Origin: Pseudorhodoplanes sinuspersici
Lineage (GTDB): Bacteria; Pseudomonadota; Alphaproteobacteria; Rhizobiales; Xanthobacteraceae
Length of the DNA stretch: 64,000 nucleotides
Direction: 5' to 3'
Assembly (NCBI RefSeq): GCF_002119765.1
Contig: NZ_CP021112.1
Coordinates: 2,164,501 to 2,228,500 of the forward strand
Below, one piece after another: positions 43,560-63,469 of the stretch. Position 1 is the stretch's first letter. Each line of letters starts with the position of its first letter. A program made the position numbers and the translations under genes. Under the pieces are notes generated by a model. The model worked only from the letters and a program-made list of their open reading frames with translations, was not told the origin of the DNA and ran no database searches.

Positions 43560-43573
43560 TTGACGATCCTCAA
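43560..43573. promoter_or_regulatory. FNR/FixK-type box 1 (TTGA-CGATCC-TCAA)
   Basis: Perfect TTGA-N6-TCAA. The centre is 69.5 bases upstream of the ATG of the minus-strand methyltransferase at 42820-43497, so a class II promoter would start near 43525 with a short leader. It is one of five perfect boxes in the polysaccharide locus. Confidence 0.6.
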
Positions 43574-43732
43574 CACCGCGCGAGGCGGGCTGGCCCCCCG
43601 TTAAGACGGGATTTGACCGAGCTGGCTTGTGTCAGGTCCAGAGCGAACCGGGCCTGGGCACCTCAATCGAGGGGGGGCGGGGTCAAATGAACGGCGGTTC
43701 CTCATCCACCGATCGACCGTAGTTGACGAATA

Positions 43733-43746
43733 TCAACTAGCCATGG
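43733..43746. promoter_or_regulatory. FNR/FixK-type box 2 (TTGA-CGAATA-TCAA)
   Basis: Perfect TTGA-N6-TCAA, extended to GTTGA...TCAAC. It lies in the same divergent gap as box 1, 168 bases before ATG 43908 of the plus-strand methyltransferase, so each direction of the gap has a box. Confidence 0.55.
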
Positions 43747-43907
43747 CGCGGCGGCGGCATCCTTGCGATCTGCGCGCGCAAAGCATTCCCCCGCTGCTGT
43801 TGGGCCAGTTAGTGGCCGTTTCAGGCATGAGGCGCTGAGCGCGCGGAAAAACGGAGCGATGCTCCGGGAGAACGTGTGCCCCTTATCCTGCGGGAGCTGT
43901 GGACGTC

Positions 43908-44861
43908 ATGAATGGAAAGTTGGAAGAGCCCACGACGTTTCAGGAGTGGCGCAAACGTCATTACGAAATTGAGAAGCAATATGCTCGTCAGATCCTGGAA
44001 ACGCCGAAGGGCTCGGATGAGCGGCGTCAGGTTTTCCAACAAGCTTATAGCGACGTTATTGGTAACATCATCGAGATCTATGATCCGGGCTGCGGTGAGA
44101 CAAAATATACCGACACCGTCGTCAATATCGTGAAATCGTTGCTATCGTTGTCGGGCAAGCATGCTGCCAAACATATGACGAAGATCTTCGATTTGGGCTG
44201 CGGCAGCGGTCATTTATTGGTGGCGCTCGCGAAGGACGGATACAATGTTTACGGCATTGATGTATCCGAAGCCTCCATCGTGGAAGCCAAGAAAGATCTT
44301 GGTCCATTCGCCAAATCGGACCAGGTTCAAAATGGCGATGTTCTCGATTACAATCCTCCAACCAAGTTCGATATCATTGTCATGGACAATGTGATTGAAC
44401 ATCTGGTTCCGGATGAAACCGCCGACATACTCGCGAAGTGTTACGAGATGCTCGACGAAGAAGGTTATCTCGTCGTTCTCACGCCGCATTCTTTCTCCGG
44501 ACCACACGACATCAGCAAATACTTTCTACCCTTCGGGTCGAAGGCTGAGGGGTTTCATTTGAAGGAATTCTCGTTCACCGACATGAACCAGTTCCTCAGA
44601 CAGGCGGGTTTTGAGGAGGTCTGGGGCTTTCCTTTCCATCCCAGACTGCTTGGTAAATATAACGTGACGCCCAAGCCGTCCGAATGGGCCGCGCGCAAAA
44701 GCATGGCGCTGGAAAAAGTAGCCCAACGTGGACCTCTTCCGAGGCTTCTCAGGCTGGGGCGCGTATCCGCACGCATGGTTACGGCGCTCGCGTTTCCCGC
44801 TGTTGCGGTGGGCGTGAAGAAAGCCGCCGGTCAGTCCACCAATGGCGCGTACTCGATGTGA
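43908..44861 (+). CDS. Class I SAM-dependent methyltransferase
   Basis: The protein of about 317 residues starts at ATG 43908, 11 bases after gggag; a GTG at 43899 is too close to that site. Motif I is IFDLGCGSGHLLVALAKDG, the acidic loop YGIDVSEASI, then IVMDNVIEHLVPDE and GYLVVLTPHSFSGPHD. The C-terminal ~60 residues contain a hydrophobic amphipathic stretch (ARMVTALAFPAVAVGV) that may associate with the membrane. Probably modifies the polysaccharide repeat or its lipid carrier-linked form. Confidence 0.85.
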   Translation: MNGKLEEPTTFQEWRKRHYEIEKQYARQILETPKGSDERRQVFQQAYSDVIGNIIEIYDPGCGETKYTDTVVNIVKSLLSLSGKHAAKHMTKIFDLGCGSGHLLVALAKDGYNVYGIDVSEASIVEAKKDLGPFAKSDQVQNGDVLDYNPPTKFDIIVMDNVIEHLVPDETADILAKCYEMLDEEGYLVVLTPHSFSGPHDISKYFLPFGSKAEGFHLKEFSFTDMNQFLRQAGFEEVWGFPFHPRLLGKYNVTPKPSEWAARKSMALEKVAQRGPLPRLLRLGRVSARMVTALAFPAVAVGVKKAAGQSTNGAYSM

Positions 44862-44924
44862 ACGGTGACCGCAGACACTCTCAAAAGGATCAGCCCAAGC
44901 CATTGGAGCATAAAGAGGCGATCA

Positions 44925-45578
44925 ATGTCTGGTTTGTTCAAAATTGTGTCACCCTTCATGAAGCGATTTCGGATATCGCGTGCCAGGCGGATTAAACGCG
45001 TATTCCCGGATATCAATAACCGCTCGATCGCTGACGTCGGAGGCTCGCTTCATTTTTGGCGCTTTGTGAAATCAGAAATGCGACCAAAGCAAGTAACGAT
45101 CTATAATATTGCCCTGGACGGTGAGTTTGACGCTGCGAATATTGGGCAAGAGGCAGGCAACATTCAGACCACAGTCTATGACGGAAAGCGAATTCCGGTC
45201 GACGACAAGCAAATCGATATATTGCTTTGCAATTCAGTCATAGAACATGTTCCGCCGCGTGAACGATCTGGCTTGGCACGCGAGATCAGCCGTGTTGCAA
45301 GGAATTATATCATACAGACACCGGCGAAAGAGTTCCCCGTCGAGCTCCACTTTCTCATGCCGTTTCTGCACTGGCTGCCGAGACCCGTCGGGCGTGCCCT
45401 CGCGAAATTTACGCCATTTGGGTTGACTCAACGCGATGCTGCATTAGTGCAGCAATATTTCGATGGGACCAATCTGCTGACTGCAAGGGAATTTCGAAGC
45501 TTGTTTCCCGAAGGGCAGCTTGTCATCGAACGTTTCCTGTTCATCCCCAAGTCCTACATGATCATCAACAAAACCTGA
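44925..45578 (+). CDS. Small SAM-dependent methyltransferase-like protein
   Basis: From ATG 44925 (site aaagaggcg) the product is 217 residues, with IADVGGSLHFWRFVK in place of motif I, NIALDGEFDAANIGQEAG and ILLCNSVIEHVPPRERSG. The Gly-rich loop is short, but the Asp and the N-S-x-I-E-H motif keep the class I pattern. It follows 44861 by 63 bases and precedes the GT2 gene, suggesting one transcript 43908-46796. The open frame from 44865 overlaps nothing but lacks a start signal. Confidence 0.75.
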   Translation: MSGLFKIVSPFMKRFRISRARRIKRVFPDINNRSIADVGGSLHFWRFVKSEMRPKQVTIYNIALDGEFDAANIGQEAGNIQTTVYDGKRIPVDDKQIDILLCNSVIEHVPPRERSGLAREISRVARNYIIQTPAKEFPVELHFLMPFLHWLPRPVGRALAKFTPFGLTQRDAALVQQYFDGTNLLTAREFRSLFPEGQLVIERFLFIPKSYMIINKT

Positions 45579-45743
45579 AGTATATGACCCACTCCCTGCT
45601 CAGCGAGCGGAACCGTGACCGAGGCTCGGACTGGAATCCAAAGGAATTGCTACGAAGCATAGCCTCGGTTTCTGACGGGCAATGCCGCAGGCACGTTATT
45701 GCTAAGGTGCGATCGATGCGATCGCGTGAGACAGGAGTGAACG

Positions 45744-46796
45744 ATGTCGCCCTCCAACGTTTCGGCTGAAGCTGCAGACCGCCCCTTAGTCACGATCGCC
45801 ATTCCGACATTTGATCGGGCTGCGCTATTGAGAGGGTGCATTCAGTCGGCCTTGGCGCAAACCTATGAGAATATCGAGGTTCTCGTATCTGATAATGCGT
45901 CACCGGACGACACCCAACAGGTGTTGCGGGAGTTCAACGATAAAAGGTTGCGGGTGCTGACACAGGAGACAAATATCGGTCTCCTCCCAAACTGGAATGC
46001 GTGTTTGGCGGCGGCTAAGGGCGAGTATGTCGTTTTCGTTTCCGATGACGACAGAATAGCGCCGTGGCTGATCAGTAGATGCCTCGAGATCGTCGAACAA
46101 CAGCCGACGATTCCGATTGTTGTTACGTTGTGCAATTTTCGCATGCCGGAACTGAGGCAAACGAGACCGCCTCATAAAAGTCGGCTCATTCGAACGGGTA
46201 TTACGGATGGGACCGACATATTGTTGGAATTTCTGAAAGACGAGGTCACGGTCGCGATGTGCGGCATCTTGCTGCGGACCGAAGTGTTACGGTCAGGAGG
46301 AGGCTTTCCTCTCGATTTTCCTCACACGGCCGATGTCGCTGCGTGGGCACCGGTTCTATGCGGAAACAAGGCAGGTTTTATCAACGAGGCATGCGCGACC
46401 TACAACTTTCATCGAGAATCGGAGACGGCCAGGTTGGGGGTCACGCAAATTCTGCTTGATGCTTGGAAGATGGTAAATCGCATTTCGCATGCCGCTGACA
46501 AGAGGATAGAGGACGAGCAGCTGCGTGAGACTGTTAAGCTGGAAGCAAGGCGCGGCTTCGCCCGGCGTAGCCTCGCTTACCTCGCGCACTATCGTAGCAA
46601 TGGCGCCAGTCTGAATGACGTTGCCACATTCGTGTGGCGCTTCCGGGACAATATGATTGTGGTCGACAAATTGTCGCTCGTCAGATTCATCGCGATCGTT
46701 CTTTGTCCAAGGCCCCTGGCCGACGGAATTCGATACATCAGGAAAACCCTGGCGGGAGGGTGGCGAGATCGTCAAACCGCTGTCAAGCTCGGGTAG
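45744..46796 (+). CDS. Family 2 glycosyltransferase
   Basis: The 350-residue GT-A fold enzyme has VTIAIPTFDRAALLRGCIQS, VLVSDNASPDDTQQV, and the metal-binding DxD region YVVFVSDDDRIAP. It would transfer a sugar from an NDP donor to the growing lipid-linked repeat unit. This is the only clear GT2-type transferase in the window; others of the repeat unit must lie outside or be unrecognised. ATG 45744 follows acaggagtgaacg. It is convergent with the polymerase gene. Confidence 0.9.
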   Translation: MSPSNVSAEAADRPLVTIAIPTFDRAALLRGCIQSALAQTYENIEVLVSDNASPDDTQQVLREFNDKRLRVLTQETNIGLLPNWNACLAAAKGEYVVFVSDDDRIAPWLISRCLEIVEQQPTIPIVVTLCNFRMPELRQTRPPHKSRLIRTGITDGTDILLEFLKDEVTVAMCGILLRTEVLRSGGGFPLDFPHTADVAAWAPVLCGNKAGFINEACATYNFHRESETARLGVTQILLDAWKMVNRISHAADKRIEDEQLRETVKLEARRGFARRSLAYLAHYRSNGASLNDVATFVWRFRDNMIVVDKLSLVRFIAIVLCPRPLADGIRYIRKTLAGGWRDRQTAVKLG

Positions 46797-47159
46797 CGAC
46801 CTTCGTCGTTAGTTTTAGCGTATTATTCTATGCAGATTTTCACGCATGACAGCCAGGCGATCCGGATCGTGCCTTTTGCGGTCGACGATCAGTTCTCGCC
46901 GAGAAAGCCGAGGTCTAAACAGTGGATCACGGTCTCGTCTGTAATCGGGCATTGAGTTTTCGTCCCAAATGCCGCGAAGGATGCTTCGGTCGCTAGGGCC
47001 TGTATAGAGCGCGTCGTGAGCGGAAGTTCACTCCCGCTGCAAAGTAGCTGGAGAGGAGATCAATTTCGCAGGCAGGTGGCCGTGCTTACTTGCACCATCG
47101 CCTGCTCGGTGCTTGGCAGCAGTCGGTATGGCGCATGTGTCCCGCCGAAATGGCCGTTT
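46797..47159. other. Convergent gap, no supported gene
   Basis: These 363 bases lie between the GT2 and polymerase stops. One minus-strand frame (46815 to about 47023) is open for ~67 codons but lacks a start and is Arg/Asp-rich. It may be a gene remnant or chance. No clear terminator was seen. Confidence 0.4.
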
Positions 47160-48398: not shown

Positions 48399-48477
48399 CT
48401 AGGATCCTGCAAGCGTTCGCAATCGGCTCAGCCAACGGCGTTGTCGGCCCAGGTTCTAAAGGTCAACGTGGCCGACA

Positions 48478-49983
48478 TTACTCCGCCGCCTGCAGTTCTC
48501 TCTTGTACCGGCGTAACGATTGTCTGCTGAACTCCACCATCGTGTTGTCGACATCCTCCTGTTCTTCTTCGTGGCTAAGATCGTGTAGCCGCTTCAGCTC
48601 TAGCATCACGATAATTGCCGAACCCAACGCAAAGCCACCAAACAGGGCAAGGAATACAAGATGCGATACATGGGGAAACGTTTGGCCTAGCGGGGCGGCC
48701 GCGAGTTGAACAACTCGCAAGCTTGAGAACTGTGATTTTTTTGCGATGTCGGAACTGATCTGTTCTTCGCCCATCCGCGTTCCGTAATGATCAGCCGCCG
48801 CTGAAGCTCGAGTGAGCAGGCGTTTCAAACGATCGTATTCAGCTTCCTTCGATGACAGAGAAGCGAGCTCCGAATTGACTTGCTCGATCTCGACGCCGAT
48901 CAAAGTCTCCATCTTTGCGAACCCGCTCAATTCTGTGTTGATTTTCAAGAGGGTCGCCATCGCGTCTTGGTATACGCGCACGAGAAGAAGGGGAGGAGCC
49001 TCCTCAAACTTCGAAGGTGTGCTTGGGTTGGGCCGGAACTCGGAGCCACCGAGGGTGCTCACGATGTTGGACACAGTTTTTGATTGAGTGACAGGCTTTA
49101 AGGCTGCCAACTGGTCCAACATTGCCTGTTTTTGACCCTTTCGCTCTTCGATCAAGCCGCGTGTCGTCGCCAGCTGTGTTGCGAGATCGTTGGCTCGCTT
49201 GAGAAGCAGGTTGCGTTGATCGGCGACAGAGTAGATCGAGGCTGCGACCGAAAAGTTTTGAAGGTCGGCAGCTGCTTTCTCAGCTTCCAGTTCCAGTCGC
49301 TTGCTCTGTTGCTGGAAAAATACCTCGGCCCCCGGAATCTGCACCAGATCAGCCTGCACGGCGACCAATGAATTTGCCAGTTGGTTCAGGAACTCGGCTG
49401 CGATTTTCGGATTCGGATAGCGGAAGGAAATACGAAGAAGGTCGGACCGGCCTTCCTGTTTCGCGGAGATGAGACCGCGCAGCGCCGAGACGATTTCCCG
49501 GTTCTCGTTCTTAGTCTCACTCTCTTTGGCCTCGCCTCCTTTGGCTTCACTCCCTTTTTGATCTTGGGACGGATCTTCGAAATAGGCTGGTAGTGCGTTA
49601 GACAAATAGGACTTGGCCGCCACGCGCAGCTTGAACAATAAGGGGGCTTCTTCGTCCGGGAACAGTCGCTCGTAGCCGATATTGGTGGCGGCCATCTGGA
49701 TGACGTGATCGGTGGCACCAATTCGCGCAAGAGAATCGATGCGGGCTGCGAGATCGACCCCCTCTCCCAGGTTGCCGTTGTCTGGATTGGCTGCTCGATC
49801 CTTGATGCCTTGGCCGACACGCAATAGCGTATATGCCTCATAGCGCTCGCCGATCATGCCGTAGACCAGGAAGGCGCCGAACGACGTAAAAAGAATCGCG
49901 GTGTAGATGATGAGCTGCCGGCGCCACAGGATCGGCAGGATGTTGGCGATCAGATGATCGTAGCCATGCTTGCGATTTTGCAC
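48478..49983 (-). CDS. Wzz/GumC-type chain-length determinant
   Basis: The 501-residue polysaccharide co-polymerase has an N-terminal membrane helix (IYTAILFTSFGAFLVYGMIG, about 30-50), a long periplasmic coiled-coil part (FFQQQSKRLELEAEKAAADLQ) and a C-terminal helix (HLVFLALFGGFALGSAIIVML) preceded by a Pro/Gly-type QLAAAPLGQTFP. It lacks a Walker A kinase domain, so chain-length control without a fused BY-kinase. It is divergent from rfbF with an FNR-type box between. Confidence 0.87.
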   Translation of the reverse strand: MQNRKHGYDHLIANILPILWRRQLIIYTAILFTSFGAFLVYGMIGERYEAYTLLRVGQGIKDRAANPDNGNLGEGVDLAARIDSLARIGATDHVIQMAATNIGYERLFPDEEAPLLFKLRVAAKSYLSNALPAYFEDPSQDQKGSEAKGGEAKESETKNENREIVSALRGLISAKQEGRSDLLRISFRYPNPKIAAEFLNQLANSLVAVQADLVQIPGAEVFFQQQSKRLELEAEKAAADLQNFSVAASIYSVADQRNLLLKRANDLATQLATTRGLIEERKGQKQAMLDQLAALKPVTQSKTVSNIVSTLGGSEFRPNPSTPSKFEEAPPLLLVRVYQDAMATLLKINTELSGFAKMETLIGVEIEQVNSELASLSSKEAEYDRLKRLLTRASAAADHYGTRMGEEQISSDIAKKSQFSSLRVVQLAAAPLGQTFPHVSHLVFLALFGGFALGSAIIVMLELKRLHDLSHEEEQEDVDNTMVEFSRQSLRRYKRELQAAE

Positions 49984-50093
49984 TGCCAGTTCTCCGGTTC
50001 CACACGCGGCCTCGTCGGGCGCCGAATACGCGAATCAATCAGAGACGGCGCGCACGCCCAGTGTGATTCATGCGTGCCTTGCACATCGATGAG

Positions 50094-50107
50094 TTGACGG
50101 TTGTCAA
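50094..50107. promoter_or_regulatory. FNR/FixK-type box 3 (TTGA-CGGTTG-TCAA)
   Basis: Perfect TTGA-N6-TCAA in the 222-base gap between wzz-like (start 49983) and rfbF (start 50206). Its centre is 117 and 105 bases from the two start codons, so it could serve either or both units. Confidence 0.6.
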
Positions 50108-50205
50108 ATTCTGCGCTGGCGCTCTGCCTAGATTTCGCAACGGCGTGGGAGAGCTGACGGCGTTAAAGCCCGTTCCGCAATAGCAATGACAGGCAGGAGA
50201 AGGAA

Positions 50206-51054
50206 ATGAAGGTAGTCATTCTTGCCGGCGGTTACGGAACACGACTGAGTGAGCACACGAGCGTGGTGCCCAAACCGCTGGTTGAGATCGGTGGCCGGCC
50301 CATCCTTTGGCACATCATGAAACTCTACTCCTATCATGGGCTGAATGAGTTCGTGATCTGCTGTGGTTACAAGGGGTCTATCATAAAGGATTACTTTCTC
50401 AATTACCTGCCTCATCAAGGCGATTTCACCATCGATCTGCAACGCAATCGGATTGAGACACATCGCAATGAAAGCGAGCCATGGTCGGTAACACTGGTCG
50501 ACACCGGCGAAAAAACGATGACCGGTGGCCGGCTCAAGAGGGTGAGAGACTATCTCGGGAATTCGACCTTCTGCCTCACTTACGGTGATGGCGTCAGTGA
50601 CGTGAACATCCGCGAATTGATTACTTTCCATCACCAGCAAGGCGCGCTTGCGACCGTTACGGCGGTTCAGCAGCCTGGGCGTTTCGGCGCGCTTAACCTG
50701 TCTTCGGACCGCCCTCGCGCCACCAATTTTCGCGAGAAGGATTCGCGTGACGGGCAAGTGATCAATGGCGGCTTCTTTGTCGTGGAGCCGGAGGCGATCG
50801 ATACCATCGACGGCGACGAGACAAGCTGGGAGCATGAGCCGTTGGCCCGTTTGATCGAGCAGGATCAGCTCGCAGTCTATCGCCATCGCGGGTACTGGCA
50901 GAACATGGATACGCTTCGCGACAAAGCGGTTCTGCAGGAACTATGGGATACGGGCGCTCCGCCCTGGTGTGTTTGGGATAAGGCGGAAGCTGCGTCTTCC
51001 AAAGAACCATCCAAGCCAGCACAACCCGAAAAGGCCGATCAGGCTCACTTTTAA
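50206..51054 (+). CDS. rfbF: Glucose-1-phosphate cytidylyltransferase
   Basis: The 282-residue nucleotidyltransferase has the RfbF signature: VVILAGGYGTRLSEHTSVVPKPLVEIGGRP at the N-terminus (key LAGGYGTRL and PKPL), CCGYKGSIIKDYFLNY, LTYGDGVSDVNI and NGGFFVVEPE. It makes CDP-glucose from CTP and glucose-1-phosphate, the entry to CDP-deoxysugars. The C-terminal 30 residues are Ala/Lys/Pro-rich. Start ATG 50206 follows aggagaaggaa. A CDP-glucose 4,6-dehydratase (RfbG), the usual next gene, is missing; an NAD-dependent epimerase/reductase follows at 12 bases. Confidence 0.94.
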   Translation: MKVVILAGGYGTRLSEHTSVVPKPLVEIGGRPILWHIMKLYSYHGLNEFVICCGYKGSIIKDYFLNYLPHQGDFTIDLQRNRIETHRNESEPWSVTLVDTGEKTMTGGRLKRVRDYLGNSTFCLTYGDGVSDVNIRELITFHHQQGALATVTAVQQPGRFGALNLSSDRPRATNFREKDSRDGQVINGGFFVVEPEAIDTIDGDETSWEHEPLARLIEQDQLAVYRHRGYWQNMDTLRDKAVLQELWDTGAPPWCVWDKAEAASSKEPSKPAQPEKADQAHF

Positions 51055-51066
51055 AAGGAAACTACG

Positions 51067-52125
51067 ATGCGGATTCTTTATACAGGCGCAGACGGCTATA
51101 TCGGTGCGGTGCTCGGCCCGAAGCTGCTTGATCGCGGTTATGACGCCATCGGGATCGACACCGGACTTTATCGACGCGGTTGGTTGTTCGATGACGGGCG
51201 GACCCGGCCAATGGTCATATCTAAGGACATTCGCCAGCTACCTGAATCGGGGCTGACTGGATTTGATGCCGTCGTGCATCTGGCTGAGCTTTCCAATGAT
51301 CCTTTGGGAGAGAACGATCCCGAAATTACGATGGAGATCAATCACCGCGGTTCGGTCGAGTTTGCGAGGAAATGCAAAGCGGCGGGTATCTCGCGTTTTG
51401 TCTATGCGTCGTCATGCAGCATCTATGGTGCCGCGGGCGCTGAAATGAAATCAGAAACGTCCCGTTTCGATCCAAGAACAGCTTACGCACGCTGCAAGGT
51501 GATGGTTGAAGCCGATGTCAAGCAGATGATGGATTCGCGGTTCACGCCGGTATTTCTGAGGAATGCCACAGCTTTTGGTGCATCGCCTCGTCAGCGTTTT
51601 GATCTCGTTTTGAATAACCTGGCCGGCTTTGCATTCACGACAGGGCAGGTTCGTGTTATGAGCGACGGAACGCCATGTCGCCCCCTCGTTCATGTTGATG
51701 ATATTTGCGAGGCGATTTGCTGTGCGCTCGAAGCGCCGCGAGAGGCGGTGCGCGGTGAAGCGTTCAATGTTGGTACTGAAGCGCAGAATTATACGGTTCG
51801 TGAAATTGCTGACATCGTCGGCGAGACGTTTGCCGGAAGCGAAGTCACATATGGCCCGAGCGGCGGAGATGATCGCAGCTATCGTGTGTCTTTCACGAAG
51901 ATCAAGGAGCGCATGCCAAGTTTTCGTTGTCAGTGGAGCGCACAGCGTGGTGCAGCTCAATTAAAGACTGTTTTCGAGCGGATCCAACTGGATGACGCGA
52001 CATTCAATTCTCCGCCATTCACGCGTTTGTCCGAACTGCGGCATTTGCGTAGCACCGAGCAACTCGATCCGCGGCTTTTATGGACACCAATCAATGAGGT
52101 GGTTCCTGTTGCAGCAAGCGTCTGA
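51067..52125 (+). CDS. NAD-dependent epimerase/dehydratase
   Basis: The 352-residue extended SDR has YTGADGYIGAVLGPKLLDRG as the cofactor loop, VVHLAELSNDP, ASSCSIYG and catalytic Tyr-Ala-Arg-Cys-Lys (YARCK). Adjacent to RfbF, it probably acts on a CDP-hexose as a 4,6-dehydratase substitute, epimerase or 4-ketoreductase. It is 12 bases after rfbF. The sugar set continues after a 5.7-kb interruption at 57853 (RfbC-like, C-methyltransferase, DUF4910). Confidence 0.88.
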   Translation: MRILYTGADGYIGAVLGPKLLDRGYDAIGIDTGLYRRGWLFDDGRTRPMVISKDIRQLPESGLTGFDAVVHLAELSNDPLGENDPEITMEINHRGSVEFARKCKAAGISRFVYASSCSIYGAAGAEMKSETSRFDPRTAYARCKVMVEADVKQMMDSRFTPVFLRNATAFGASPRQRFDLVLNNLAGFAFTTGQVRVMSDGTPCRPLVHVDDICEAICCALEAPREAVRGEAFNVGTEAQNYTVREIADIVGETFAGSEVTYGPSGGDDRSYRVSFTKIKERMPSFRCQWSAQRGAAQLKTVFERIQLDDATFNSPPFTRLSELRHLRSTEQLDPRLLWTPINEVVPVAASV

Positions 52126-52609: not shown

Positions 52610-53326
52610 GTGGCTCTGATCTTGGTAGTCGATGATCATAGCGTATACCGGGGGGGTCTCCGTAGTGTGATTGAGGCGAGAGTTCAGCAGGCTTGCGTTT
52701 TCGAGGCCAACGACCTCTCTGCGATGCGTGAATATGCCAAGGCAAAGCGCTATTTCGATCTGGTTCTTATCGATTCAAAAAGCCTGAGCCACCATTCGTT
52801 GGGATTGGTGCGGGAAGTACACGAACTCAGTCCTGCGACGCGCTTTGCCGTGATGTCCACGTCAAATACGCGGGCAGACGTGCTGACTTGTCTTTCCGCC
52901 GGCTTTCATGGCTTCGTGAACAAGCTTCAATCAGCGGAAGAAATATTGGCAGCGGTCGGTGATCTGCTGTCGGGGCGGATTTATGTCCCCCGCTGGCTGG
53001 CGGATGGCGACGATAGCCGAGCTGATGCGGACTCTCACGCGTGGAAAGCCACCTCCGTGGATCTCTTTCGGCTGACGCCACGACAGAATGAGGTTTTGAC
53101 TTTGCTGGCACAGGGCATGTCCAACAAAGAAATTGCTCATAAGCTTCACATATCAGAAGGCACGGCAAAGATTCATACTGCGGGACTCTTGCGGGCTATC
53201 GGCGCCCGCAACCGGACTGAAGCCGCATTCAAGGCCGCAAATTTGCTCGAGGCGAGCAGCCGTGCGGCCAGTCAGTCACAAGCTGTGACGCCGATTCCCA
53301 AAAGGCTGAATGGCACGAGCGCCTGA
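52610..53326 (+). CDS. NarL/LuxR-type response regulator
   Basis: The 238-residue protein starts with GTG after a strong gggaggga. The receiver domain keeps Asp8/Asp9, phospho-acceptor Asp55 (LVLIDS) and Lys105 (GFVNK). The LuxR-type HTH is at about 152-215 (LTPRQNEVLTLLAQGMSNKEIA, then ISEGTAKIHTAGLLRAIGA). No sensor kinase gene is nearby. In polysaccharide loci such regulators control exopolysaccharide promoters. It is convergent with the flippase gene (45-base gap). Confidence 0.9.
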   Translation: MALILVVDDHSVYRGGLRSVIEARVQQACVFEANDLSAMREYAKAKRYFDLVLIDSKSLSHHSLGLVREVHELSPATRFAVMSTSNTRADVLTCLSAGFHGFVNKLQSAEEILAAVGDLLSGRIYVPRWLADGDDSRADADSHAWKATSVDLFRLTPRQNEVLTLLAQGMSNKEIAHKLHISEGTAKIHTAGLLRAIGARNRTEAAFKAANLLEASSRAASQSQAVTPIPKRLNGTSA

Positions 53327-54628: not shown

Positions 54629-55050
54629 ATTGGTGTCCTGCTATGTCGAGGCGGTTTGGATCGAGGCTTTATGATATCTGTTCGCTACAGGCTAATGCTC
54701 ACGGTAGCACGATTTTTTCATTCTAAACGGCCAGTCCTGAGGAGCGCAAATGTTAACGACCACGGGAAAGCGATTCACACGATGTTCGATGATTGTTCGA
54801 AGAGACAGAATCCTTCAAACACGATTTCGCGACCGACTCACGATTTCGTGTGATCAATGTGTGTAAATAAGGAGCGCCTAGCTCCCGTCTTGTGCGGTCT
54901 TTGGCGATTTTCGCAGCATTGGGACCAAGGATATAGGCCGTCCGATTGATGGAATAGACCGTGTGTCTAGAGCATCAGCCAGATTTAATTAAAGGTCAGC
55001 GCATGCAAGCCTCAAGCCTCGAGATGTCGGTCAACTACTGAGGGTGGATT
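54629..55050. other. Divergent control region between flippase and Crp/Fnr gene
   Basis: These 422 bases have no supported ORF. The region near 54975-55000 is AT-rich (cagatttaattaaaggtc). No perfect TTGA-N6-TCAA box was found here, so clear autoregulation of the Crp/Fnr gene through such a box is not seen. Confidence 0.4.
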
Positions 55051-55719
55051 ATGCGTGCAGAAGCTCTTGCGCATGTTGGCTGTGTTAAGGTTCCGCCGCT
55101 CGCTTACGGCCTTCATCGAAACGACGTCGTCGTCGATAGTCGCCGCCTTTCAACAACGTCATTAGTTCCGCGAGGGCGTGCTCTCTTCTGGCAGGGTGAG
55201 CAACAGTCTCAAAAAATCGAAATTGTCGAGGGTGTCGTTCGGGCTGTTCGACTATTAGAGAATGGTAACCGGCAAATCCTGGCATTCTATTGGCCAGGCG
55301 ATGTTGTCATGCCAACTCAATCGTCTTGCCAGCAGTTCACCGCCGAGGCCGTGACAAACTGCCGTGTTGTCCTGACGCCGACGTCAGGCATTTGTCATCA
55401 GGACGAACCATGCGGCGCTCATCAGGTTTTATCGGAAATGCTATCGCTCGTTCTGACAATGGGCCAGAAGAATAGCATCGCCAGAATAGCTTGGTTTCTT
55501 TTGCGTATCCGGCGACACTTACCGGAAGATCCGAGATTCGCCCGCGCGTTTCAGCTGATGTTGCCGCGGGCAGACATTGCGGACCACGTCGGTACCTCGC
55601 TTGAAACTGTTTGCAGAACACTGGCCGAGTTCAAGGTCAGGGGACTTATCGATTTGCCGAACCGGAAAACCATCCGTTTCATCAACCTGTCAGGTCTTGC
55701 CGAAGTCGCCGGAGATTGA
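55051..55719 (+). CDS. Crp/Fnr-family regulator with FNR/FixK-type recognition helix
   Basis: The 222-residue protein has an N-terminal cNMP-type beta barrel (about 25-115; IEIVEGVVRAVRLLENGNRQ, FYWPGDVV), a dimer helix (about 122-150) and a winged helix with LPRADIADHVGTSLETVCRTLAEF. The recognition helix holds Glu185-Thr-Val-Cys188-Arg189, matching the E-x-x-S-R of FNR (which reads TTGA) with Cys for Ser. The N-terminal four-cysteine cluster of FNR is absent, so oxygen sensing by an Fe-S cluster is unlikely; scattered Cys93, 104, 115 and 121 remain. It lies 37 bases before the initiating transferase gene. Confidence 0.9.
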   Translation: MRAEALAHVGCVKVPPLAYGLHRNDVVVDSRRLSTTSLVPRGRALFWQGEQQSQKIEIVEGVVRAVRLLENGNRQILAFYWPGDVVMPTQSSCQQFTAEAVTNCRVVLTPTSGICHQDEPCGAHQVLSEMLSLVLTMGQKNSIARIAWFLLRIRRHLPEDPRFARAFQLMLPRADIADHVGTSLETVCRTLAEFKVRGLIDLPNRKTIRFINLSGLAEVAGD

Positions 55720-55756
55720 AGCGGCTTAATTATGCTTCAAGGTCTAGAGGTTTCGA

Positions 55757-57223
55757 ATGGCACTCGCACGCGAAGCGACCATGGCGAATAACCTCAATCG
55801 CCAGAAAAATCGCGAACAGATTGCAGTACCGATTTCGCTCAATACCATATCGCCGCTCGTCGCAATATTGGATTTCGGTTGGATCGTGCTTTTGGGGACC
55901 GCGGCCGGTCTCGCTTATCATGCCGCGGCTCTCGAAGGGAACGGGGAGATTTCGAACTATATCGGCTCGGGGATCGCAGTCGCAGCGCTTTACTCCGTAT
56001 TTGCCCACGCGGCGCAGCTTTACAGGGCGTCGAATTTGCTTCGAATTAGATGGCAGGTGGGCCGATCGATCTTGGTCTGGCTGACAACATTTGTCTTTCT
56101 GGCCAGCCTGGTCTTCATTTTGAAGATTGGCGCGACGTTTTCGCGAGGCGCTATGCTGGCGTTCTTCACCAGCGGTTTGTTCGCCAACGCGATCGTGCGC
56201 TTTATCGTTGCGCGCGTTTGTACATATGTCATTGCCTCAAACATCTTAAAGCCAAACCGGGTCATTCTGATCGGAGTAGAGAACGATTTCGGCTCCCACC
56301 GGGCAACGTCGGCGTTGGAATGCTGCGGCTATGCCGTGGTAGGAGAGTTTTCGCTGCCGATCGGCCCAAATCAAACGATCACGAAAAAAGCCCTGCGCTC
56401 GCTTCTGCGTGAGGTCGTTCGTTATGTGCGCGATGCGAGAGTCGACGAAGTCGTTGTCGCCATTCCGTGGGACAAGCAGGATGTGATCGACGAAATAGAG
56501 TGCGAGTTGCGTGTGCTACCGCTTCCCGTCAAGCTCGTGCCTGACGATATGACAGAACGCATGCTCCGGCGTCCGGTGTTCGAGCTTGGTCCGACCAAGG
56601 TCGTTGAGCTCCAGCGCGCTCCGTTAAGCGCAACCCAGCGCAACCTGAAACGTACGATGGATCAGATTTGCGCAGCGTTGGGTCTGCTTCTTCTGCTGCC
56701 GTTATTCGGGGTGATCGCCGTCGCCATACGCCTCGAAACGCCAGGGCCGGCGATGTTTTTTCAGACGCGCGTTGGCTTCAATGGGCGCCCGTTCAAAATC
56801 TGCAAATTCAGAACAATGTCCACGCAGGACGACGGGCCGATAGTTGTTCAGGCCACGAGGAACGATAAACGTATAACGCGCTTGGGGAATTTGCTAAGAA
56901 GGCTGAGCATCGACGAAGTTCCTCAGCTTCTCAACGTGCTCCGAGGCGAGATGTCGTTGGTAGGTCCGCGCCCTCATGCGCTCGCTCACGACAACGAATA
57001 TGACCGCCTTATCGCGACGTATGCGATCCGTCACAAGATAAAGCCAGGCATTACGGGCTGGGCTCAGGTGAACGGATTTCGGGGAGAGACGCCGGAATTG
57101 GGGATGATGAGGCAGCGTGTCGAAAATGACATTTGGTACATTGAGTACTGGTCGCTTGGGCTCGATATTCGAATCCTGCTGCTGACGATTGCGCGTGTCT
57201 TGAAATCGGATAATGCTTATTAG
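55757..57223 (+). CDS. Undecaprenyl-phosphate sugar phosphotransferase (WbaP/ExoY/WcaJ type)
   Basis: The 488-residue initiating enzyme has about four to five N-terminal membrane helices, a CoA-binding-like middle domain (RVILIGVENDFGSH), another helix (ICAALGLLLLLPLFGVIAVAI) and the bacterial sugar transferase domain with FKICKFRTM, LSIDEVPQLLNVLRGEMSLVGPRP and KPGITGWAQVNG. It loads the first hexose-1-phosphate onto undecaprenyl phosphate and so defines the start of the repeat unit. It is likely to be cotranscribed with the Crp/Fnr gene. Confidence 0.93.
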   Translation: MALAREATMANNLNRQKNREQIAVPISLNTISPLVAILDFGWIVLLGTAAGLAYHAAALEGNGEISNYIGSGIAVAALYSVFAHAAQLYRASNLLRIRWQVGRSILVWLTTFVFLASLVFILKIGATFSRGAMLAFFTSGLFANAIVRFIVARVCTYVIASNILKPNRVILIGVENDFGSHRATSALECCGYAVVGEFSLPIGPNQTITKKALRSLLREVVRYVRDARVDEVVVAIPWDKQDVIDEIECELRVLPLPVKLVPDDMTERMLRRPVFELGPTKVVELQRAPLSATQRNLKRTMDQICAALGLLLLLPLFGVIAVAIRLETPGPAMFFQTRVGFNGRPFKICKFRTMSTQDDGPIVVQATRNDKRITRLGNLLRRLSIDEVPQLLNVLRGEMSLVGPRPHALAHDNEYDRLIATYAIRHKIKPGITGWAQVNGFRGETPELGMMRQRVENDIWYIEYWSLGLDIRILLLTIARVLKSDNAY

Positions 57224-57354
57224 ACGTCCATTTTCAAACGATAGCCCTCAAGACCCGCATCGATCCCAATCGCCTCATGTCGATCGACCGATGCTCAGCT
57301 TGAAACACTTCACGAGCATCATTCGGGGTCGGATAATGCGCCTGGTGGCAGCAT

Positions 57355-57792
57355 ATGTTCGCACTGTTGGTCCTGGCTCATATGCTGTGGGTTGTGGTGA
57401 GGCTGCGGAGGGAATGGCGGCGCGGTCAGCCTGACGAAGGTTCGGTGCCCCAGCCGGGTGCGGAAATCTATACCGGTGCGCTGCGGAAGGTGTCTGAATA
57501 CACGCCGGTCGCCGCGCCGATGCCGGCCGGCTCGTTTCATGGTCACTTATTGAGAATTCTCAGATTCGTCGCCCGGCGATGCATTACATCTCTTTGCCTC
57601 TTCCACTCGAAAAGAGGCGGAACGTGGCACATATCGAAGAACTGCGACCTCAGTACCGCCGCCCGGCAGATGCAGGAGCGCACACAACAGCAGACCAGCG
57701 CTCCCTCGAATGGACAGATTTTGTCGTGCCAGTGGCGGTCATGTGCACCGTGGCATGGATTTTCTTTCTGTTCTGGCTGGCTGTGCGTCTGA
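57355..57792 (+). CDS. Possible small membrane protein, doubtful
   Basis: The frame encodes a short hydrophobic segment (FALLVLAHMLWVVV) followed by a basic stop-transfer-like RLRREWRRG and a Pro/Gly-rich part. From about residue 65 onwards composition becomes noise-like (Cys/Trp/Ser-rich) and it overlaps the better supported frame at 57624. Perhaps only the first part is real and a frameshift ends it. It lies between the transferase and RfbC-like genes. Confidence 0.25.
   Translation: MFALLVLAHMLWVVVRLRREWRRGQPDEGSVPQPGAEIYTGALRKVSEYTPVAAPMPAGSFHGHLLRILRFVARRCITSLCLFHSKRGGTWHISKNCDLSTAARQMQERTQQQTSAPSNGQILSCQWRSCAPWHGFSFCSGWLCV
57550..57563. promoter_or_regulatory. Near-match FNR-type box (TTGA-GAATTC-TCAG)
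   Basis: Seven of eight consensus bases match, and the core tgagaattctca is a perfect palindrome. The centre is 67 bases before GTG 57624 and may serve the small ORF plus RfbC-like gene. Confidence 0.3.
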
Positions 57793-57812
57793 TCGAGGTG
57801 GCTCTCGCCTGA
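57624..57812 (+). CDS. Small single-helix membrane protein
   Basis: The 62-residue frame starts with GTG five bases after agaggcgg. The N-terminal half is polar (AHIEELRPQYRRPADAG) and the C-terminus is one clean transmembrane helix (FVVPVAVMCTVAWIFFLFWLAV). Position 40 bases before the RfbC-like gene suggests cotranscription. No family is recognised. Helix quality and ribosome-binding site make it more believable than the overlapping frame. Confidence 0.5.
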   Translation: MAHIEELRPQYRRPADAGAHTTADQRSLEWTDFVVPVAVMCTVAWIFFLFWLAVRLIEVALA

Positions 57813-57852
57813 GCGACAATGAACCAGCTCGCGAGATGAATGAGCCCCGCAG

Positions 57853-58434
57853 ATGATCTTCTCTGAAACAAAACTGGCAGGAGCGTACGTCGTCGATATT
57901 GACCCGCAGAAGGACAATCGTGGTCATTTCGCTCGCGTCTTCTGCGAAGATGAATTCTCTGCGCGCGGATTGAAATTCTCGGTCGTACAGGCAAGCGTCA
58001 GTCTCAACGCAAAGCGTGGTACGGTCCGCGGCCTGCATTTTCAATATCCGCCCGCGGCCGAGATAAAATATGTACGATGCATGCGGGGGGCGCTCGCGGA
58101 CGTCATTGTCGATCTCCGGCCCGAATCGGCAACATATCTCGACCATCTGATGATCGAGTTGTCGGCAGAGAATGGTCGCGGGCTCTACATACCCGAACGT
58201 TTCGCCCATGGCTTTATCACGCTGCAGGACGGTACCGAGGTGTCCTACTTTATCGGCAATGCTTACACACCGGCGGTCCAGGGTGCGCTCAGATACGATG
58301 ACCCGCACCTCAAAATCGAATGGCCATTGCCGGTCAGCGTTATTTCGGGCCGCGATCGGAAAGCGAGTTCGGTTTTCGAGATCGGAGCGGAGCTGAAAGA
58401 CCGCATGAGTGTCCGAGAATCAATGGTCGCTTAA
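57853..58434 (+). CDS. rfbC: dTDP/CDP-4-keto-6-deoxysugar 3,5-epimerase-like (RfbC) protein
   Basis: The 193-residue cupin-fold epimerase has DNRGHFARVFCEDEFSARGL, VQASVSLNAKRGTVRGLHFQ (catalytic His in RGLHFQ), MRGALADVIVDLRPES and ERFAHGFITLQDGTEVSYF. It epimerises C3/C5 of a 4-keto-6-deoxyhexose. No dTDP-rhamnose genes (rmlA, B, D) are in the window, so with RfbF its substrate is more likely a CDP-sugar. The symbol is by family similarity. Confidence 0.88.
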   Translation: MIFSETKLAGAYVVDIDPQKDNRGHFARVFCEDEFSARGLKFSVVQASVSLNAKRGTVRGLHFQYPPAAEIKYVRCMRGALADVIVDLRPESATYLDHLMIELSAENGRGLYIPERFAHGFITLQDGTEVSYFIGNAYTPAVQGALRYDDPHLKIEWPLPVSVISGRDRKASSVFEIGAELKDRMSVRESMVA

Positions 58435-58560
58435 GTCGGTCCAAGGGGAGGGACGACAAGAGAAAATCGTCGTTGTTTCAGCCGAGGACGAATTGTCGGC
58501 CGCTTCATGTGCCCAATTATTCGAAGGATGCTTCTGTTTGGTTAAATCCCTCACGACGAT

Positions 58561-58574
58561 TTGACGACCGTCAA
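58561..58574. promoter_or_regulatory. FNR/FixK-type box 4 (TTGA-CGACCG-TCAA)
   Basis: Perfect box, extended to a 7-bp-arm palindrome ATTTGAC-N4-GTCAAAT (58559-58576), the most symmetric of the set. The centre is 84 bases before the C-methyltransferase ATG 58652. Confidence 0.6.
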
Positions 58575-58651
58575 ATGACACAGATGCACCGAGCATAAGG
58601 TCCGCCCCCGAGTATCTTAAACGGTATTCTTGCACGCGAGAGGAGCCGCCG

Positions 58652-59947
58652 ATGTTAAAGCATGAGACCGCTTCCGAGGTGTTTCGGGCTACGGCATTAT
58701 CGGCTCAAGGGAGCGGTCACAGCGGTTGCCGGTTTTGCGGCACCAAGCTGCAACAGGTCTTTATCGACCTCGGATTATCTCCCCTTGCAAATTCCTACTT
58801 GAAGCAAGACGATCTCGAAAGGGACGAGCATTATTTCCCTCTGCGTGTGTATGTGTGCAGCGAATGTTTTCTGGTGCAGCTTGAGGAGTGGGAAAGTCCG
58901 GAAAACATTTTTGGAGACTACGCGTACTTTTCTTCCTACAGCACCTCCTGGCTCAGTCATGCCAAGGCCTATGTCGCCGGCATGGTCACCCGATTCGGGA
59001 TCGGCCCTAACGACAAGGTTGTCGAAGTCGCGAGCAACGATGGTTACCTGTTGCAGTATTTTGTCGAGCGAGGAATCCCCGTCCTTGGCATCGAGCCGGC
59101 GCGGAATGTTGCCGAGGTTGCGCGAACAAAGGGAATCCCCACGCGGGTCGACTTCTTTGGAGAAGATACGGCGCGGACCCTTCGCGAGGAGGGCATGCGC
59201 GCTGATCTCATCATCGGAAATAACGTGCTGGCCCATGTCCCAGACTTGAACGATTTCGTCAGCGGCATAAAGACTTTGCTCAGCGACAAAGGCGTCGTTA
59301 CAATCGAATTTCCGCACCTAATGCGCCTGTGCGCCGAATGTCAGATCGACACCATCTATCATGAACATTTCTCCTACTTCTCGTTCATTACGGCAGAGAA
59401 AATCTTTGCAGCACACGGGTTGACGCTCTTCGATGTTGAGGAACTTCCCACACACGGGGGGTCACTGCGCATTTACGCTCAACACAGTACGACCGGCCCT
59501 CACCGGATTTCCGATCGTGTCGAGGATCTCCGTACACGCGAGATCGATGCGGGCTTTGCGGATCTTGGCCGGTATCTCGTTTTCGAGGAGCGAGCGCTCC
59601 AGACCAAGCGGAAGCTTCTGGCCTTTCTGAAGCAGGCGAAATGGGCGGGCAAACGCGTCGTGGGATATGGTGCCCCGGCCAAGGGTAATACTTTGCTCAA
59701 CTACTGCGGCATCAACCCCGAACTCCTTGAGTACACGGTCGACCGGAATCCTCACAAGCAGGGCCGTTTCCTCCCTGGAACACACATTCCGATCTACGAA
59801 CCCGAGCGGATCTACGCAACCAAGCCGGATTACATTCTGATCTTGCCGTGGAATCTGAAGGACGAGATCATCAATCAGCTTTCATTTGCCCGCTCATGGG
59901 GGGCGCAATTTGTGGTGCCGATCCCCGAGCCGCAGATTGTCGCATAA
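58652..59947 (+). CDS. NDP-sugar C-methyltransferase
   Basis: The 431-residue protein has the three-part layout of sugar C-methyltransferases (TylCIII/TcaB9 type): an N-terminal zinc site (CRFCGTKLQQVFIDLGLSPLANSY with later VYVCSECFLVQ; four Cys), a SAM domain (VVEVASNDGYLLQYF, LIIGNNVLAHVPDL, FPHLMRLCAECQIDTIYHEHFSYF) and a C-terminal domain with GYGAPAKGNTLLNYCGI. It adds a methyl group to a ketosugar carbon, giving a branched deoxysugar. With RfbF, the epimerases and DUF4910 it indicates a CDP-activated branched sugar. Confidence 0.92.
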   Translation: MLKHETASEVFRATALSAQGSGHSGCRFCGTKLQQVFIDLGLSPLANSYLKQDDLERDEHYFPLRVYVCSECFLVQLEEWESPENIFGDYAYFSSYSTSWLSHAKAYVAGMVTRFGIGPNDKVVEVASNDGYLLQYFVERGIPVLGIEPARNVAEVARTKGIPTRVDFFGEDTARTLREEGMRADLIIGNNVLAHVPDLNDFVSGIKTLLSDKGVVTIEFPHLMRLCAECQIDTIYHEHFSYFSFITAEKIFAAHGLTLFDVEELPTHGGSLRIYAQHSTTGPHRISDRVEDLRTREIDAGFADLGRYLVFEERALQTKRKLLAFLKQAKWAGKRVVGYGAPAKGNTLLNYCGINPELLEYTVDRNPHKQGRFLPGTHIPIYEPERIYATKPDYILILPWNLKDEIINQLSFARSWGAQFVVPIPEPQIVA

Positions 59948-59995
59948 AGCTATCGAGATCGTCCAAAAGCTTGCGCGAATTACGAGGACCACGGG

Positions 59996-61351: not shown

Positions 61352-61420
61352 ACTCTTACGGCAGGCCGCCGAGATTAAGCACGCGTCCTCGACAGTTCTC
61401 TGCGGTTTCCTACAACGGTC

Positions 61421-63430
61421 TTACCTTTCGCGCAGGCTTTCATGCTTGTAACGCATCAAAGGCGACAACAGGTAGCTAATGATACTGCGCGAGCCCGTTT
61501 TGATCTCAACCGTGGTGGCCATGCCGGGTGACAGATTGACGCGCTTGTTCTCGATCTCCATCTGAGTGCGATCGAGCGAGACACGGGCCGCATAGACCAG
61601 TTCCTGACCTTTAGGTTCGCTGCTGCTAGCTTCGCCGCCCCGTTGCTTATCGTCCTGCGGTTTGTTCCGGGTAATGGCATCCTGCGAAATGTCGAGAATC
61701 TTGCCTTGCAGCAGCCCATAGCGGGTGAAGCTGAAGGTATCGATCTTGATCTCGGCGTCCTGCCCGACCTCCACAAAGCCGATATCCCGGTTCGAAATCA
61801 TGGCCTCGATTTCGAGGCCGCTATCGGCCGGAACAATCACCATGAGGGCTTGTGCAGGGGTTACGACGCCGCCGATTGTATGGACGGCGAGCTGCTGAAC
61901 GACACCATCAATCGGTGCGGTCAACCTCTGTAGACTCGTTCGTTGCTCAGCCTTGATCACATCCTGAGCGAGCCCAGCGGCCTTTTGTTCAGCTTTGGAC
62001 AGATCGTCGAACAGCATGCGCTCATACTCTGCCACGGCTTTTGCCCGACTTTCCGTGAGAACGGCAATGGCGGCATCGGTTTCGCTATAACGGCTTTGCT
62101 GGATTAGGATCTCTTGCCGTTGGCCGACCAGATCCTGCAATTCCGTGAGGTAGGTCAGCTTCGATCCAAGCTCCTTCTGAAAGAGCTGTTCGCGAATCTC
62201 GACTCTTTGCTGCAGGGGCGTGATCGTTGCCTTGAGCTTCTCAATCGAGGCACTGATGGTCGCGCGCTCGGCTTCCTTTTGCGCGATTTGCCGGTCGATA
62301 GCGGCGAGTTTGGCGTTCTGTTCAGTGATCAGGCTGGTCAGAAATCGGCGATGCATCTGAACAAGTGTCGACGGCGCTTCTTTCGGCGGTGTAAATGCGG
62401 AAAGCGGGTCTTCCTTTCCCGCTAGCGCAGCTTTGAGGCGTGCCGTATCAAGCTGGGCTCCTTGGAGATCGCTCCTCAAGCGTTCGAATTCTGCTGTGCT
62501 CATTGTCGCGTCGAGTTCGATCAGAACATCGCCGCTTTTGACGCTTTGTCCGTCGCGCACGAGAATGGAGCGCACGACACTGGTATCAAATGGCTGGATG
62601 GTCTTGTTGCGGCCGCCGGAAATGATCTTTCCCGGTGCCACAGCGACGATATCGACGGTACCAACCGCGGCCCAGATCAGGGCGGCACTGAAGACGCCGA
62701 TGAGTGCGAATGCAGTCGCGCGGCCAACAGGCGAGGGTGGCGTTTCCACGATCTCCAGCGCCGCCGGCAGAAAAGCAAGTTCGTGCGACCGGCGGCGATC
62801 GGGATCCTGCCGCGGTATACTGACAGCGCGGCCGAGTTTGCGGGCGCGATCCGCGAAGTCAATAATCGCGGTGCCGGCAGTATTCGCCGCGGATTGGGCA
62901 GCCTCTTTGGCTAGGTCCGGCTTGGCAATCCGGCGGGTTTTTTCAACGAGGCCGAGGGCTATTCGAGTTGCGTAAAGCTTTCCGTCTTTTGCCGACCGCA
63001 ACAGCGTCCTGGAGAGAACCCCAGGACTTTGTACCAGGATGACACGGCCGTCCCAAATGGCCTGGAAATCGGTTTGGGACATCAGAGTGGGCCGGTCTGC
63101 GTCTGGGGCGAGAACAATGACCTGGGTCTTGCTGGCCTTGCCCAAAAGCAGAAAGCCTCCTCCGCGCAGGCACGCAATTCCCGGCAGGGGCAGGGAGGAC
63201 AGACGCCGCCAGGCGGTTTTCAATATGCGCGCTTTGAGATCGATCATTCTTGCGCGGCGAACGATCTCGAGAATACTGGCATTTCCGTCGCCAGTGCGGC
63301 GTACGAAATGCTCAGGATCGGCATCGATTCCCCGAAGGCGAAGCAACATCTCCAGAACCACAAGGCCCGGATCGGCTAGGTCGTCTGCTCTCTCTTCGCG
63401 GCTTGCCATCGTTGGCTCACGCTTCTGCAC
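61421..63430 (-). CDS. HlyD-type secretion adaptor with N-terminal C39-like domain
   Basis: The 669-residue membrane fusion protein is longer than usual HlyD (about 430-480). Residues ~20-145 resemble the degenerate C39 peptidase-like domain normally at the N-terminus of HlyB-type ABC transporters (LVVLEMLLRLRGIDADPEHF, LPLPGIACLRGGGFLLLG, FQAIWDGRVILV); no catalytic Cys is at the usual position. A linker, a membrane helix (FALIGVFSAALIWAAVGTV, about 240-258), biotinyl-like half, long coiled coil and HlyD C-domain (LTAPIDGVVQQLAVHTIGGVV; RVNLSPGMATTVEIKTG) follow. The start is GTG 63430 or ATG 63409. It lies 67 bases after the transporter gene. Confidence 0.88.
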   Translation of the reverse strand: MQKREPTMASREERADDLADPGLVVLEMLLRLRGIDADPEHFVRRTGDGNASILEIVRRARMIDLKARILKTAWRRLSSLPLPGIACLRGGGFLLLGKASKTQVIVLAPDADRPTLMSQTDFQAIWDGRVILVQSPGVLSRTLLRSAKDGKLYATRIALGLVEKTRRIAKPDLAKEAAQSAANTAGTAIIDFADRARKLGRAVSIPRQDPDRRRSHELAFLPAALEIVETPPSPVGRATAFALIGVFSAALIWAAVGTVDIVAVAPGKIISGGRNKTIQPFDTSVVRSILVRDGQSVKSGDVLIELDATMSTAEFERLRSDLQGAQLDTARLKAALAGKEDPLSAFTPPKEAPSTLVQMHRRFLTSLITEQNAKLAAIDRQIAQKEAERATISASIEKLKATITPLQQRVEIREQLFQKELGSKLTYLTELQDLVGQRQEILIQQSRYSETDAAIAVLTESRAKAVAEYERMLFDDLSKAEQKAAGLAQDVIKAEQRTSLQRLTAPIDGVVQQLAVHTIGGVVTPAQALMVIVPADSGLEIEAMISNRDIGFVEVGQDAEIKIDTFSFTRYGLLQGKILDISQDAITRNKPQDDKQRGGEASSSEPKGQELVYAARVSLDRTQMEIENKRVNLSPGMATTVEIKTGSRSIISYLLSPLMRYKHESLRER

Positions 63431-63455
63431 GGATATCTTTTCTCAAGGTCAGTTA

Positions 63456-63469
63456 TTGAACAACGTCAA
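63456..63469. promoter_or_regulatory. FNR/FixK-type box 5 (TTGA-ACAACG-TCAA)
   Basis: Perfect TTGA-N6-TCAA in the 67-base gap between the ABC transporter and HlyD genes. The centre is 32 bases before GTG 63430 and 53 before ATG 63409. If it drives a promoter of its own, the later start is favoured. Confidence 0.5.

Follow-up and report, generated by a model that had tools for sequence, protein, structure and literature searches.

FNR/FixK-type boxes in an exopolysaccharide locus of Pseudorhodoplanes sinuspersici point to a locus-encoded regulator

Results

A group of FNR/FixK-type boxes among exopolysaccharide genes

In a 64,000-nucleotide stretch of the Pseudorhodoplanes sinuspersici genome (contig NZ_CP021112.1; hereafter the window, whose numbering is used unless otherwise stated), an exopolysaccharide locus carries a group of palindromic boxes, TTGA-N6-TCAA, of the FNR/FixK type. 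The locus extends from 40.6 to 70.1 kb and, according to family searches and translations, encodes methyltransferases, glycosyltransferases, polysaccharide assembly proteins, regulators and a HlyD/ABC pair. One of the regulator genes, starting at 55051, codes for a FixK-like protein of the CRP/FNR superfamily. The boxes, their conservation, their spacing to the -10 element and their co-occurrence with the regulator were computed, and from these the 55051 protein is probably a dedicated activator of several operons of its own locus, acting through the boxes.

An exact search returned six perfect boxes in the window, at 31295, 43560, 43723, 50094, 58561 and 63456, compared with a mean of 1.21 and a maximum of 4 in 100 dinucleotide shuffles, none of which reached six. 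An earlier note on this DNA had reported five of them in the locus and one inside livF. All were recovered, with a single coordinate moved by ten nucleotides (43723 instead of 43733); the five locus boxes are intergenic by crude gene calls, and the sixth lies at 31295, within a LivF-like ATPase gene. Four of the five locus boxes share TTGACG on the plus strand, as had been stated, and the fifth has it on the minus strand.

The whole genome (5,971,615 bases, one contig) contains 90 such sites, compared with 17 for a reversed-pattern control. A crude codon-based gene caller placed 45 of the 90 in intergenic DNA, which suggests that FNR-type boxes are in wide use across this genome. Seven boxes fall between genome positions 2208060 and 2230685, including two just past the edge of the window (65541 and 66172). 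With sites placed uniformly over the whole genome, a scan statistic gave P = 0.002 for at least six of 90 boxes in 22.6 kb and P = 0.00012 for at least seven, the latter counting 65541, which is inside a gene. Further, six of the genome's 20 TTGACGN4TCAA sites lie within 22.6 kb, which occurred in none of 200,000 simulations.

Box positions are conserved in orthologous loci

Relatives of the 55051 protein were found in 17 named loci, with 16 orthologs at 67–77% in Bradyrhizobium, Rhodopseudomonas and Tardiphaga; a distant relative (L018, 28%) was excluded from all counts. Five genomes of the same family with orthologs were added, three of which correspond to named loci (L002, L006 and L017), giving a final set of 19 non-redundant loci that includes the window's. 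A gene was scored as box-bearing when a perfect box lay at most 400 nucleotides (nt) upstream.

By this measure, rfbF had a box in all 19 loci and the C-methyltransferase gene in 18 of 19. The glycosyltransferase gene at 66382 was box-bearing in each of the six loci that extend that far (in G050, the box is at the predicted start), and wzz in nine of nine examinable loci, there in the gap common to rfbF. The corresponding values were 8/16 for the ligase-like gene at 40612 and 4/10 for the glycosyltransferase gene at 45744. Besides the window's locus, only G025 has the methyltransferase gene at 43899, and a box is found upstream there too. With box positions maintained in this way, the regulon suggested in the earlier note was not refuted. 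The near match at 57550, which the same note had listed, is present as TTGAGAATTCTCAG, and conserved equivalents of it occur in relatives: in 16 of the 18 loci with rfbC, the 700 nt upstream of this gene contain TTGAN6TCAG or TTGAN6TCAA followed by a TA at +22 (see below). Judged by these counterparts, the site looks genuine.

Other genes of the locus gave a negative result. No perfect box was found upstream of the epimerase or DUF4910 genes in any of the 19 loci, nor upstream of the undecaprenyl-phosphate glucose phosphotransferase gene in ten loci. A homolog of the response regulator encoded at 52610 occurs in 16 of 16 named loci, and a perfect box precedes its gene in one of the 19 loci (G050).

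Over the 19 loci (496,517 bases), the TTGA-N6 dyad was observed 108 times, 79 of them in intergenic DNA, compared with 8.7 expected from the loci's own tetramer counts. It ranks first among the tetramer dyads at a spacer of 6, and spacers of 5 and 7 gave 15 and 5 occurrences, respectively. A second clear cluster, of eight TTGACG boxes at 1353401–1389778, surrounds the regulator gene in genome G025.

The gene content of the polysaccharide locus differs among relatives, as seen in the upstream part of L008–L016 and at 41.8–45.6 kb in the window. The variable parts also bear boxes, as if gene sets moved together with a matching promoter.

A -10-like element at a fixed distance from the box

When the loci were aligned on the box, a conserved TA appeared at a fixed distance downstream. 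Of 87 non-identical box-to-gene pairs, 43 had TA at +22, in 31 cases as TAnnnT; each other offset up to 47 was occupied in 0–6 pairs, except for 11 pairs with TA directly behind the box. This spacing was found for rfbF in 17 of 19 loci (the remaining two at 21 and 23), for the C-methyltransferase gene in 17 of its 18 box-bearing loci (one at 23) and for the glycosyltransferase gene at 66382 in five of the five loci examined. Because the wzz direction has canonical -10 spacing in only one of nine loci, the 50094 box most likely serves rfbF and not wzz.

In the window and at its edge, the +22 arrangement is found at 43560 (minus strand) and at 50094, 58561 and 66172 (plus strand). This contrasts with the genome's other intergenic boxes, where 3 of 78 directions had TA at +22 and no single offset stands out. 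A composite pattern consisting of the box, its last base left free, and TAnnnT at the same distance had ten matches in the 5.97-Mb genome, of which the locus accounts for four; a reversed control matched twice. By eye, the remaining six matches are a mixed group: several fall within open frames, and no polysaccharide gene was evident.

Such a constant interval between box and predicted -10 element is the layout of class II CRP/FNR activators. A reading of TTGACG as the -35 element of an ordinary sigma-70 promoter was ruled out, as the -10 element is 29 nt after TTGACG and not about 17. So simple a promoter grammar (box, 21 nt, TAnnnT) could hold variable polysaccharide gene sets under one switch.

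Table 1. Boxes and genes of the exopolysaccharide locus, in window numbering
Feature	Position	Strand	Remarks
Methyltransferase	42820..43497	-	PF13489; predicted target of 43560
Box TTGAGGATCGTCAA	43560..43573	-	Before methyltransferase 42820–43497; TATCCT at canonical spacing
Box	43723..43736	+	Before methyltransferase 43899; CATCCT instead of TAnnnT at +22; weaker candidate
Methyltransferase	43899..44861	+	PF08242 and others; possible target of 43723
Wzz-like chain length determinant	48478..49983	-	Divergent from rfbF; weak Wzz match, under cut-off; TIGR03007 62.7 bits, under cut-off
Box	50094..50107	+	Before rfbF; TAGATT at +22; matches composite pattern
rfbF, glucose-1-phosphate cytidylyltransferase	50206..51054	+	TIGR02623 410.6 bits (cut-off 300.25); predicted target
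NAD-dependent epimerase/dehydratase	51067..52125	+	PF01370; immediately follows rfbF on the same strand; lacks its own box
NarL/LuxR-type response regulator	52610..53326	+	PF00072, PF00196; no box in window
FixK-like Crp/Fnr regulator (P0001)	55051..55719	+	Proposed reader of the boxes
Undecaprenyl-phosphate glucose phosphotransferase	55757..57223	+	TIGR03023 434.5 bits (cut-off 410.75); behind regulator, no box of its own
One-mismatch box TTGAGAATTCTCAG	57550..57563	+	Before rfbC; TA at +22
rfbC, dTDP-4-dehydrorhamnose 3,5-epimerase	57853..58434	+	PF00908; likely target of 57550
Box	58561..58574	+	Before C-methyltransferase 58652; TAAGGT at +22
C-methyltransferase	58652..59947	+	PF08421, PF08484; predicted target
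Box	63456..63469	-	26 nt before hlyD start; TA at +21, not canonical +22; not conserved
Box	65541		Just outside window; inside ABC gene
Box	66172	+	Just outside window; intergenic, before glycosyltransferase 66382; TA at +22

The locus also encodes a flippase-like protein, a DUF4910 protein and a Wzy_C-like protein whose score was just below the cut-off; the glycosyltransferase label of 66382–70095 comes from translations and not from a family search. The HlyD-family adaptor (61421–63430) shows an unusual arrangement, with an N-terminal peptidase-C39-like domain (residues 18–135) on the membrane fusion protein itself. It is adjoined by a HlyB-like ABC transporter (63498–65741), and homologs of the pair are kept in the locus of relatives.

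The 55051 protein and its orthologs

The 55051 protein is a member of the CRP/FNR superfamily, with matches above the cut-offs to PF00027, PF13545 and PF00325 and a CRP/FNR fold in the structure model. Both by sequence and by model, its nearest solved relative is FixK2 (4i2o). It did not pass the curated FixK model NF050806 (71.5 bits, cut-off 300), and in the alignment with 4i2o its P172 takes the place of the redox-active C183 of FixK2 (chain residue 183, a C183S variant according to PMC9104804). An equivalence of C188 with C183 was ruled out, as counting along the alignment puts C188 at S199.

No conserved N-terminal cysteine, as in the iron-sulphur ligand set of FNR, was found in the 19 orthologs. 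C104, considered as the mark of a relocated iron-sulphur cluster, was dropped, since paralogs L042–L044 share a cysteine at this alignment position. C115 and C121 (C115-x5-C121) and C188 are kept in 19 of 19 orthologs. In the structure model, the first two are in a loop (111–121; predicted local distance difference test score of the block, 63) before the dimer helix, and C188 is in the DNA-reading helix (184–196). With its own C115-x5-C121 and C188 motif, the 55051 family might constitute a distinct branch of FNR/FixK proteins that responds to redox state or metals and travels with exopolysaccharide loci, into which imported sugar-modifying gene sets plug by means of the box and the -10 register; we put this forward only as a tentative and rather doubtful proposal.

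Upstream of the regulator gene, at about 54900–55050, conserved blocks without a TTGA box were observed across 15 loci; they may be where the NarL-type response regulator encoded at 52610 acts. Because the genes for the regulator and the response regulator have no box in the window, autoregulation through these boxes is unlikely.

Boxes co-occur with the regulator

Orthologs of the 55051 protein are rare: they were found in 6 of 119 genomes of the family and, at E 1e-30, in 2 of 347 genomes of the order, the window's own included. C-methyltransferase homologs of at least 67% were present in the same six family genomes and in no others of the 119, and a box accompanied all six. By contrast, C-methyltransferase homologs in regulator-free loci had a box within 300 nt upstream in 0 of 20 cases, these being the best 20 of 52 further listed matches (19 from genomes lacking the ortholog and one a second copy in G050). 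The control stretches themselves (9–20 kb) contained no box in 16 cases and one box in four, a total of 4 compared with 2.5 expected.

The locus boxes also differ in their inner bases. Position 5 of the half-site is C in 9 of 12 locus boxes, compared with 14 of 78 other intergenic boxes of the genome (p 0.00015), and position 6 is a purine in 11 of 12 compared with 37 of 78 (p 0.0045). This difference favours a reader distinct from general FixK/FNR proteins. TTGACG as a regulator-specific mark was ruled out, as TTGACGN4TCAA sites are also numerous in genomes lacking the regulator, and their whole-genome counts did not tell the 6 genomes with the ortholog apart from 18 without.

Unlinked intergenic TTGACG boxes were observed in L110 at about 7396, before an MBOAT acyltransferase gene (the 14-mer is identical to that at 50094), and in L151 at about 8077, before an NDP-sugar 4,6-dehydratase-like gene. 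Both were rejected as unlinked targets, as neither site is among the strict composite matches. MBOAT homologs had no box at two genes in G075, nor at one of two in G050; for the second in G050, a box lies about 1.1 kb before the match. A cluster of FNR-type boxes (L122 3096, 3139 and 7415) adjoins a FixK-like paralog (G000 3451516–3451722) and probably belongs to an ordinary FixK regulon.

Discussion

From the arrangement described above we infer direct binding by the 55051 protein, activation rather than repression, and the start sites; a signal is presumed. A dimer of the 55051 protein would bind the TTGA-N6-TCAA boxes, mostly of the TTGAC(G/A)-N2-(C/T)GTCAA sub-type, and recruit RNA polymerase as a class II activator, the -10 element starting 22 nt after the box and the box centre lying near -40.5/-41.5. 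The predicted targets are rfbF with the epimerase gene behind it, the C-methyltransferase operon, rfbC through its imperfect box at 57550, the pair of methyltransferase genes on the minus strand (43.5 kb) and, just past the window, the glycosyltransferase operon (66.4 kb). Genes for nucleotide-sugar synthesis, glycosyl transfer and methyl transfer would in this way be switched jointly. If true, a regulator encoded within the locus and provided with a mapped set of promoters would constitute a FixK-like switch tied to surface polysaccharide, and perhaps to biofilm formation and root colonization.

Several observations weigh against a dedicated activator. Two of the six intergenic locus boxes, 43723 and 63456, are without the +22 spacing; locus L005 has the regulator and no box before its methyltransferase gene (a 53% homolog); and no perfect box was found upstream of the regulator gene itself in any of the 19 loci. 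Genome-wide TTGACG counts did not separate genomes with the regulator from those without it. The controls for co-occurrence are diverged homologs (50–60%) in other gene contexts, with a composition that predicts fewer boxes; they are not regulator-free versions of this locus, and the co-occurrence may in part simply reflect a common descent of boxes and regulator. Two paralogs in the same genome, the FixK-like L039 and the FNR-like L040, have a nearly identical recognition helix and could read the same boxes. Finally, at least five of 90 boxes in 19.9 kb anywhere in the genome have a P of 0.019 by the uniform scan statistic. By the density check that the earlier note had proposed, unrelated intergenic DNA does contain boxes as well. 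Judged from this genome alone, the five-box cluster is only moderately surprising and the case suggestive, not overwhelming; its weight comes from the 66172 box just past the window edge and from the TTGACG subset, together with conservation and the -10 spacing.

The boxes could instead be read by general oxygen regulators, that is, FixK2- or FNR-type paralogs. In that case, the locus would belong to the ordinary low-oxygen regulon, and the role of the 55051 protein would lie elsewhere. FixK2 boxes in B. diazoefficiens are given as TTGA/C-N6-T/GCAA in PMC9104804. The recognition helices of L039 and L040 (ETVSR) are close to the E-T-V-x-R helix of the 55051 protein (ETVCR), and the intergenic half of the genome's boxes suggests other readers. 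However, the locus boxes are set apart by their inner sequence and their fixed +22 spacing, and boxes track the 55051 ortholog, whereas FNR/FixK-type matches (E 1e-10) persist in 89 of 113 ortholog-free family genomes. We regard a reading by general oxygen regulators as unlikely.

Nor does repression seem a good explanation. As a repressor, the 55051 protein would, from its boxes, mask the promoters until a signal frees them; CRP/FNR proteins can repress, and a box at this spacing extends into the -35 region. The spacing nevertheless matches class II activation, and on this account we consider a repressor role quite improbable.

The earlier note had seen in the boxes an unrecognised regulon tying polysaccharide assembly to type I protein secretion. 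Its first half stood: a conserved FNR/FixK-type polysaccharide regulon is indicated, with the 55051 protein as its likely reader. Two observations speak for the second half: in the window, a perfect box precedes hlyD by 26 nt, and 15 of 16 named loci include hlyD. Against it, a perfect box was found upstream of hlyD in only 1 of the 18 loci that have the gene with enough upstream DNA, and upstream of abc in only 1 of 6, there in a gap common to the glycosyltransferase gene; the TA at 63456 is, in addition, off-register. The secretion link, resting on one unconserved box, is not supported, and a single regulon uniting both functions is very unlikely.

Chance, aided by a G+C content that is lower in the locus (0.520–0.581 from 40 kb on, compared with 0.589–0.632 in the first 30 kb) and compatible with the five-box scan value, has a negligible probability for the cluster as a whole, being ruled out by the shuffles, the scan statistic and the dyad control, in which spacers of 5 and 7 showed no such excess, and opposed by the conserved box positions and -10 spacing. 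For single boxes, chance is a likely account of 63456 and a possible one of 43723.

Comparison with known systems

The FixK2 target box of B. diazoefficiens also describes the predicted targets of the 55051 protein. FixK2 is presented in PMC9104804 as serving microoxic respiration and denitrification; the 55051 protein differs in having one polysaccharide locus as its predicted target set, in failing the FixK model and in carrying P172 for C183 and C188 for S199. With FNR, it shares the fold and the E-x-x-x-R recognition helix. FNR itself combines a TTGA-type box and class II use with an N-terminal set of iron-sulphur cysteines, and the 55051 orthologs differ from it in lacking this set.

Clp of Xanthomonas is a CRP-family protein that acts on exopolysaccharide control, and both Clp and cyclic AMP (cAMP)-CRP are general regulators. 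The 55051 regulator, in contrast, is encoded within the locus, where four of its ten predicted composite genome sites are found. In rhizobia, cAMP-CRP acts on rosR, a polysaccharide regulator, and in its excerpted text the review reporting this names, among such regulators, only that link to rosR in Rhizobium (PMC8227245). Among the open-licence papers listed, judged by their titles and the beginnings of their abstracts and with 'Crp/Fnr' not searchable as a term, none described this regulon, and no account was found of an exopolysaccharide-dedicated CRP/FNR-type protein in bradyrhizobia or Rhodopseudomonas.

RfaH, together with the ops/JUMPstart elements of polysaccharide operons, acts on elongation. 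The 55051 system resembles it in pairing a short repeated element before polysaccharide operons with one dedicated factor, and differs from it in that the -10 spacing points to transcription initiation as the step that would be controlled.

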